NCBI GenBank assembly: GCA_003023725.1
Contig: PXYT01000024.1
Span: forward strand, 1 to 38,722
From: Sulfobacillus benefaciens
Lineage (GTDB): Bacteria > Bacillota > Sulfobacillia > Sulfobacillales > Sulfobacillaceae
Direction of reading: 5' to 3'
DNA: 38,722 nucleotides
Shown here: positions 5,051 to 6,555 of the stretch, in pieces
Layout: the number at the start of each line of letters is the position of its first letter
Numbering within the stretch: position 1 is the stretch's first letter
Position numbers and translations under genes: made by a program
Notes under the pieces: model-generated
What the model saw: the letters and a program-made list of their open reading frames with translations, nothing else
What the model was told of the DNA's origin: nothing
Databases searched by the model: none

Positions 5051-5111
5051 TTAACCTTTTCATAACATAACGTTAATCTCCCGTTAATCTGATCTTTACC
5101 GCCTCTTAAAG
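5051..5111 (+). promoter_or_regulatory. PhoP-box-like array of six 11-bp-spaced repeats
   Basis: Hexamers TTAACC (5051), ATAACA (5062), TTAATC (5073), TTAATC (5084), TTTACC (5095) and TTAAAG (5106) are spaced by exactly 11 bp. This matches the known Bacillus PhoP target, direct TTAACA-like repeats at about 11-bp periodicity. The array ends 52 nt before the start of a phosphate-permease-type gene, and CACAAT (5121-5126) could be the -10 element. Induction under phosphate limitation by a PhoP-type regulator is the inference. Confidence 0.7.
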
Positions 5112-5163
5112 GCCACCTGTCACAATAACAATTAAGATGAACAATCCACACAGGAGGATGAGC

Positions 5164-6555
5164 ATGGATACTGATAAATCCGGCTTAATCGACACACTTA
5201 ACGACGCGCCTTTGAGTCTCTTTCATTTCAGGGCTGTCTTGACGGCGGGAATGGGTTTTTTCACGGATGCGTATGATCTTTTTATCATCGGTGCGGCTTT
5301 GGTTCTTATCAAAGCCCAGTTTGCGCCCAGCAAGGAAATGGTCGGGCTACTCGGAGCAACAGCGCTAATTGCTGCATTTGTTGGAGCGTTCGTGTTTGGT
5401 CGTTTGGCGGATGTATTGGGACGAAAAAAGATCTATGGATTGGAAGCCGCCATTATGGGTCTAGGAGCATTGGCCTCGGCATTTTCTCCCAGCGTGATAT
5501 GGCTTCTGGTCTTTCGATTCATTATGGGCCTAGGCATTGGGGGTGACTACCCTGTCAGTGCCGTTATCATGAGTGAGTACTCCAACAAAAAGGATCGAGG
5601 CAAGTTGGTGGGTCTAGTGTTTTCGATGCAGGCCCTGGGACTGGTGGCAGGACCCGTGGTCGCTCTCACCTTACTGGCTTCAGGCATCCCCCACGATATT
5701 GCCTGGAGGCTGATGTTGGGACTCGGGGCCATTCCCGCGTTGGCGGTCGTCATGCTAAGACGCCGTATGCCAGAATCTCCTCGTTACACGGCTTTGGTGC
5801 GGGGAAATGCGCACGAGGCACATGAGAACCTGTCCCGGTTTTCGGGATCCCGAGTGGGTCTTACGGCGCAAGACCAACGGGTGAAGCGGTTAGGATTCTG
5901 GCAATTCATCACCAACCGCAAGTATCTCCTGACGTTGTTAGGAACCGCCGGCACATGGTTCCTGTTTGATTACGCATATTATGGCAATTCCATTTCCATG
6001 CCCTTGGTCCTAAAACTGGTAGCGCCTCATGCTTCCGATATTACGAGTATGGCCTGGTCCCTTATCGTCTTTGTAGTCGCAGCCGTACCGGGTTACTTCC
6101 TCGCCGTTAGCAAAATGGATAAAATTGGACATAGGAAGCTCCAGTTAATAGGATTTGCGTTTATGGGACTGGCCTTCGGAGTTATCGGGATTGTGCCTCA
6201 CATGACCCACTTGATTATACCGTTCCTGCTAGTGTTCGGAGCAAGCTACTTCTTCGCCGAATTTGGCCCCAACACTACCACATTCGTCCTTGCATCGGAA
6301 CTCTATCCGGTAAGCATGAGAACAACGGGTCATGGAATCTCGGCAGGTATCGCAAAGTTTGGCGCCTTTATCGGAGTGTTTGTATTCCCGATACTGACCT
6401 CGGCATTTGGACTCAGCGGCACCTTATTGATTACGTTCTTCTTCTCAATAATAGGCTTCGTCTTGACCCTGTTGTTACCTGAACCCAAAGGACGCAGCCT
6501 AGAGTCGATTTCCGATGATGCTGTGCCACTGACAACCCGGGCGGTCAATTCCTAA
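5164..6555 (+). CDS. MFS phosphate:H+ symporter-family permease
   Basis: This is a 463-aa, 12-helix major-facilitator protein of the plasma membrane. It closely follows the phosphate:H+ symporter pattern (Pho84/PHT-like, TC 2.A.1.9): GMGFFTDAYDLF in helix 1, GRLADVLGRKK in loop 2-3, GIGGDYPVSAVIMSEY in helix 4, WFLFDYAYYG in helix 7, and FFAEFGPNTTTFVLASELYP followed by RTTGHGISAG near helix 10-11. ATG 5164 is chosen because AGGAGG ends 6 nt upstream; the in-frame starts at 5137 and 5158 lack a usable site. The gene stands alone between a PhoP-like array and a terminator. Inorganic phosphate is the most likely substrate; other organic anions carried by related MFS members are an alternative. 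Confidence 0.88.
   Translation: MDTDKSGLIDTLNDAPLSLFHFRAVLTAGMGFFTDAYDLFIIGAALVLIKAQFAPSKEMVGLLGATALIAAFVGAFVFGRLADVLGRKKIYGLEAAIMGLGALASAFSPSVIWLLVFRFIMGLGIGGDYPVSAVIMSEYSNKKDRGKLVGLVFSMQALGLVAGPVVALTLLASGIPHDIAWRLMLGLGAIPALAVVMLRRRMPESPRYTALVRGNAHEAHENLSRFSGSRVGLTAQDQRVKRLGFWQFITNRKYLLTLLGTAGTWFLFDYAYYGNSISMPLVLKLVAPHASDITSMAWSLIVFVVAAVPGYFLAVSKMDKIGHRKLQLIGFAFMGLAFGVIGIVPHMTHLIIPFLLVFGASYFFAEFGPNTTTFVLASELYPVSMRTTGHGISAGIAKFGAFIGVFVFPILTSAFGLSGTLLITFFFSIIGFVLTLLLPEPKGRSLESISDDAVPLTTRAVNS

Follow-up and report, generated by a model that had tools for sequence, protein, structure and literature searches.

A predicted six-unit Pho box upstream of a PHT1-type phosphate symporter gene in Sulfobacillus benefaciens

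Six hexamers resembling TTAACC, each exactly 11 bp from the next, lie directly upstream of a transporter gene in Sulfobacillus benefaciens, which raises the question of what kind of site they form and which regulator would read it. The repeats occupy positions 5051-5111 of the 38,722-nt stretch of DNA analyzed here (the window); this stretch comes from contig C73 of a draft genome of 4.56 Mb. A sequence-only reading had described them as a PhoP-like array in front of a phosphate permease gene, and we examined that proposal computationally, from the repeats themselves to the regulon to which they might belong.

The six units, all on the forward strand and in a register that is kept in orthologues, are TTAACC (5051-5056), ATAACA (5062-5067), TTAATC (5073-5078), a further TTAATC (5084-5089), TTTACC (5095-5100) and the promoter-proximal TTAAAG (5106-5111). 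Their exact spacing, as originally described, is confirmed by the sequence and by an array scan. Pho boxes are composed of at least two direct repeats arranged head to tail with an 11-bp period, and here there are six; four of these fully match TT[A/T/C]A[C/T], the hexamer of PhoP boxes in low-GC Gram-positive bacteria, and the other two (ATAAC and TTAAA) each deviate from it at a single position. Scored against TTWAYM, the six units at exact 11-bp spacing reach 33 of 36, compared with 26 for the best six-unit combination at spacings of 8-10 or 12-15 bp anywhere in the window. When the whole window was shuffled 40 times under a first-order Markov model, the best score was 28, and 2000 shuffles of the surrounding 200 nt likewise failed to attain 33, in agreement with the earlier judgment that such an array is unlikely to arise by chance. 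Across the window, no second 11-bp array with a four-unit score of at least 16/20 was found. The minus-strand reading of 5051-5111 is weaker and only a mirror image, since TTAA is palindromic, and an interpretation as an inverted-repeat or terminator feature was discarded, there being no supporting inverted repeats inside the array.

The gene downstream (5164-6555, forward strand, 463 amino acids) encodes a homologue of the PHT1/Pho84-type phosphate:H+ symporters of the MFS superfamily. Of its 46 NCBIfam matches, the one to TIGR00887 (phosphate:H+ symporter) ranks first (E-value 1.4e-95), but the score of 321 bits lies below the curated cut-off of 610, so the product is classified by sequence as a PHT1-type homologue and not as a certified TIGR00887 member. 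The nearest solved structures are plant PHT1-11 (PDB, 9kmq; E-value 2.5e-77) and another phosphate transporter. Homology to the solved phosphate symporters includes the motifs FFTDAYDLF, GGDYP, WFLFDYAYYG, GPNTTTF and HGISA...K, which align with 9kmq and 7sp5 and which we take to hold the phosphate and proton sites. The best family match and the homology to PHT1-11 bear out the earlier assignment of the gene to the phosphate:H+ symporter group, and the predicted substrate is phosphate. Judged by this gene, the nearest relatives are Bacillota MAGs and Sulfobacillus harzensis.

Although the longest open reading frame spans 5137-6555, translation most likely starts at the ATG at 5164, because a Shine-Dalgarno sequence, AGGAGG, is located at 5152-5157 (forward strand; conserved in relatives L004 and L005) and the proteins of the relatives start at the corresponding point. 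This codon lies 52 nt beyond the end of the last repeat, and a -10 hexamer, CACAAT, is predicted on the same strand at 5121-5126, exactly 9 bp past unit 6, an offset that is kept across related arrays. No -35 element is recognizable before CACAAT, and unit 5 overlaps its expected place. The offset was assessed with 22 non-redundant forward arrays, which precede genes of the MFS and VIT1 families and those for pyridine nucleotide-disulphide oxidoreductases and solute-binding proteins. At offset 9, on average 3.68 of 6 positions agree with TATAAT, versus 2.41 at the next best offset; in 2000 shuffles, no offset exceeded 2.32. This -10 signal was not selected for, because the array ends were picked from unit scores alone. 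An array that ends at a fixed offset from the -10, with no -35, has the geometry of PhoB/PhoP activation, and with its 9-bp offset the present array takes the fixed position before the -10, in place of a -35, that is characteristic of a Pho box.

To place the array in a comparative context, upstream four-unit arrays at spacings of 7-15 bp were scored for 79 loci, namely that of the window and 78 homologous ones in other genomes, with a per-locus significance threshold of p <= 0.01. With 11-bp spacing, a significant array is present on the gene strand in 62 of the 79 upstream regions, versus 0-4 of 79 at spacings 7-10 and 12-15; the 11-bp periodicity that the sequence-only reading proposed to look for before orthologues is present. 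Coding-sequence controls yielded 2 of 79 significant loci at spacing 11 and 24 of 79 at spacing 12, the latter signal being inside the MFS gene rather than upstream of it and presumed to reflect repeated codons. On the Sulfobacillus side, six or seven units are found in 15 of the 23 upstream regions scored, the window included. When the window is compared with two close relatives, no alignment can be made by eye just before the array, and conservation extends through the array itself, the -10 and the Shine-Dalgarno sequence, with each of the six units keeping its first four positions unchanged. In Acidithiobacillus (L067 and L072), 11-bp repeats resembling CTGTCAT are present upstream of PHT1-type symporter genes, and for this reason the link between PHT1 symporters and a phosphate regulator may extend across phyla.

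The whole genome was searched with a pattern of four TTHAY units at 11-bp spacing, one mismatch being allowed, and with the reversed pattern as a control; this replaced a looser scan (four TTWAYM units, three mismatches) that had performed at control level (9 versus 10 matches). The pattern has 11 matches in the genome, against none for the control, and matches occur in 19 of the 21 genomes searched. Forward arrays precede all three MFS symporter paralogues of the genome, and the further array-bearing genes are two of the PiT family, one of the VIT1 family, one for a pyridine nucleotide-disulphide oxidoreductase and two kdpA genes; the 9-bp offset of the -10 is common to the forward arrays. 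The VIT1-family gene has a forward four-unit array (L093:8578-8615) that is conserved in relatives (L167, L178 and L213), with GATAAT or AATAAT at 9 bp, and since this family is iron/manganese transporter-like, the sites suggest a connection between phosphate starvation and metal handling. The oxidoreductase gene likewise has a forward four-unit array and a -10 at 9 bp (L095:3950-3987, L162:2025-2062 and L188). In relatives (L184, L190, L198 and L208), arrays are found before genes for SBP_bac_6/8-type solute-binding proteins, which possibly function in organophosphate or phosphonate uptake. The kdpA genes are preceded by T-rich 11-bp arrays of TTTAYG (L096:5335-5372, L200:2020-2057 and L214:2029-2066); T-richer than the others and lacking the 9-bp -10, these were set apart from the Pho sites and are probably candidate KdpE sites.

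A PhoP homologue, the presence of which the sequence-only reading had left to be checked, was found on the same contig, about 61 kb downstream of the array, in a phoP-phoR-pstS-C-A-B-phoU cluster of intact order (C73, about 60.9-67.0 kb). Of the cluster's products, PhoU and PstB score above their curated cut-offs, and PstC, PstA, PhoR (for which PnpS is the best model) and the response regulator do not reach theirs. Since the regulator, encoded at L099:11311-12042 and scoring 273 bits to YycF and 253 bits to PhoB, is below every curated NCBIfam cut-off, the name PhoP rests on its gene neighborhood; among solved structures, mycobacterial RegX3 and the receiver domain of B. subtilis PhoP belong to its closest relatives. 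A second OmpR-type regulator in the genome is also PhoB-like (L102, 243 bits), and a response regulator (PF00486) with an overlapping next reading frame, probably its histidine kinase, adjoins and diverges from one of the MFS paralogues (L100:2253-4159). The order of the phoP-phoR-pstSCAB-phoU genes is conserved in nine genomes (L099 and L229-L236). In these nine genomes, the check at pstS and phoP homologues that had been suggested was negative: neither the cluster nor the 4-6 kb preceding phoP yielded an intergenic array, and the few weak matches nearby are inside genes or several kilobases off. Pst has been described as the best-conserved Pho target of bacteria (PMC4415409), and the missing box at pst and phoPR is a property of this regulon, not a feature that defines a Pho box. 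The putative Pho regulon of Sulfobacillus has been described as phoBR-pst-phoU, ppk and ppx (PMC6803676); Pho boxes are not named in the portion of that account available to us, and a word search of its text returned neither Pit nor symporters.

Because of the PhoPR-Pst cluster, the arrays at most homologous loci and the conserved 9-bp offset from the -10, the array is very probably a Pho box, that is, a head-to-tail operator through which PhoP would activate the symporter promoter. The proposal of a PhoP-like array is, in this respect, supported by every applicable computational test, including those of the PhoP homologue, 11-bp conservation and -10 offset. Points that weigh against it are the naming of the regulator from its gene neighborhood, the second PhoB-like regulator and the lack of a detectable array at the phoPR-pst cluster, Pst being the best-conserved Pho target elsewhere. 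In the mechanism that we envisage, PhoR would phosphorylate PhoP when phosphate is low, and phospho-PhoP would bind the six 11-bp units cooperatively on one face of the DNA, probably filling them as three tandem dimers. The promoter-proximal units would then cover the missing -35, and PhoP would recruit RNA polymerase to the -10, switching on the proton-driven symporter.

The array might instead be an operator for a different regulator of the OmpR family, such as a WalR/YycF-, MtrA- or KdpE-like protein or the two-component system beside the MFS paralogue on contig C74. Direct repeats at 11 bp are a geometry general to this family, of which the genome has ten DNA-binding domains above the Pfam cut-off, YycF is a slightly better match than PhoB for the pst-linked regulator itself, and the TTTAYG arrays of the kdpA genes are related. 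We nevertheless regard this reading as unlikely, as the targets are phosphate transport genes (three MFS symporters and two PiT genes here, and the same families in relatives), the kdpA arrays differ in composition and in lacking a -10 at 9 bp, and the C74 two-component system does not adjoin the gene in the window. Moreover, known PhoP boxes are built of TTAACA/TTCACC-type units, which the array fits, and WalR boxes of TGTWAH pairs, which it does not.

Less probable again is that PhoP binds the array but represses, or merely modulates, the symporter in low phosphate. PhoP and PhoB can act as repressors, as at S. meliloti orfA-pit, which is repressed on phosphate starvation and has a start-proximal box (PMC3131613), and the PiT genes of the present genome have start-proximal arrays as well. 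Those arrays are reversed, however, and lack the arrangement seen at the symporter, where a forward array ends exactly 9 bp before a conserved -10 and replaces the -35. As for chance, or an AT-rich low-complexity repeat without a function in regulation, sequence rich in TTAA does resemble itself in part, and simple repeats such as the TTCATTTCTCT runs of L175 also turn up elsewhere in mechanical scans, but an origin of this kind has a negligible probability and is refuted by the local shuffles, by conservation across genera at one spacing only and by the sharp conservation boundary at the array.

The predicted Pho box can be compared with several known systems. Bacillus subtilis-type PhoP boxes, treated in outline in PMC4415409, are made of TTAACA-like hexamers with an 11-bp period; the array shares with them the TT[A/T/C]A[C/T] consensus, 5-bp spacers, a location just upstream of the -10 and the presence of PhoPR, and differs in having six units instead of the usual four, an MFS symporter as its target and a pst operon without a detectable array. 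The remark that six copies are long for a Bacillus-type site holds with regard to length, but there is a precedent in Streptomyces coelicolor, where PhoP protects six 11-nt units, four core and two ancillary, at pitH2 (PMC7866108). That PhoP-activated site likewise consists of 11-nt direct repeats before a phosphate transporter gene, two of the six units being weaker, although its units are of the GTTCACC type, the transporter is a PiT protein and the site has been footprinted, whereas here the transporter belongs to the MFS and the site is predicted only. The E. coli Pho box recognized by PhoB is similar in its head-to-tail 11-nt direct repeats, the proximal one standing in for the -35, and different in its CTGTCAT units, usually two per box. 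Tandem 11-bp Pho boxes, including those with six units, are already known, and the MFS symporter is a less familiar target for this known type of switch. The sequence-only reading had remarked that MFS phosphate permeases under PhoP are less familiar than PstSCAB. In the literature searched, no Pho box is described in front of an MFS phosphate symporter gene of a bacterium, an absence that is not proof, and no such symporter is described as a PhoP target in Bacillota.

At the PiT (PHO4) genes, the four-unit arrays are reversed relative to the gene, both in this genome (L092:2593-2631, identified by PF01384, and L094:2966-3004, its 77% homologue) and in relatives (L160, L163, L182, L191 and L195). 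At these seven loci in five genomes, 11-65 nt separate the end of the array from the start codon, and a -10 at the activating offset is missing; L182 has a second reversed array, 114 nt from the start codon. Since the arrays are reversed, start-proximal and without an activating -10, repression of the PiT genes by PhoP, of the kind reported for S. meliloti orfA-pit, is suggested and appears probable. At orfA-pit, which encodes a low-affinity Pit transporter and is repressed in low phosphate, the box lies shortly before the start codon (PMC3131613, PMC8829014); repression has been demonstrated there and is predicted here. More tentatively, and with somewhat less than even confidence, we propose that the Pho regulon of the Sulfobacillus lineage has been rewired, such that the boxless PhoPR-PstSCAB-PhoU system may mainly sense, the proton-driven MFS symporters, as the transport output, would be activated through long forward arrays and the PiT transporters repressed through reversed ones beside the start codon, with array orientation encoding the sign of regulation.

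This regulon-level pattern of forward arrays at MFS genes, reversed arrays at PiT genes and boxless pst is more interesting than the single site. Proton-coupled PHT1-type phosphate symporters are best known from plants and fungi, and the predicted Pho box would place them under a bacterial phosphate-starvation regulator. It also provides a motif that can be carried over to other genomes (TTHAY units every 11 bp and, after a further 9 bp, a -10), with which the Pho regulon may be found in Sulfobacillus and in other acidophiles of biomining.
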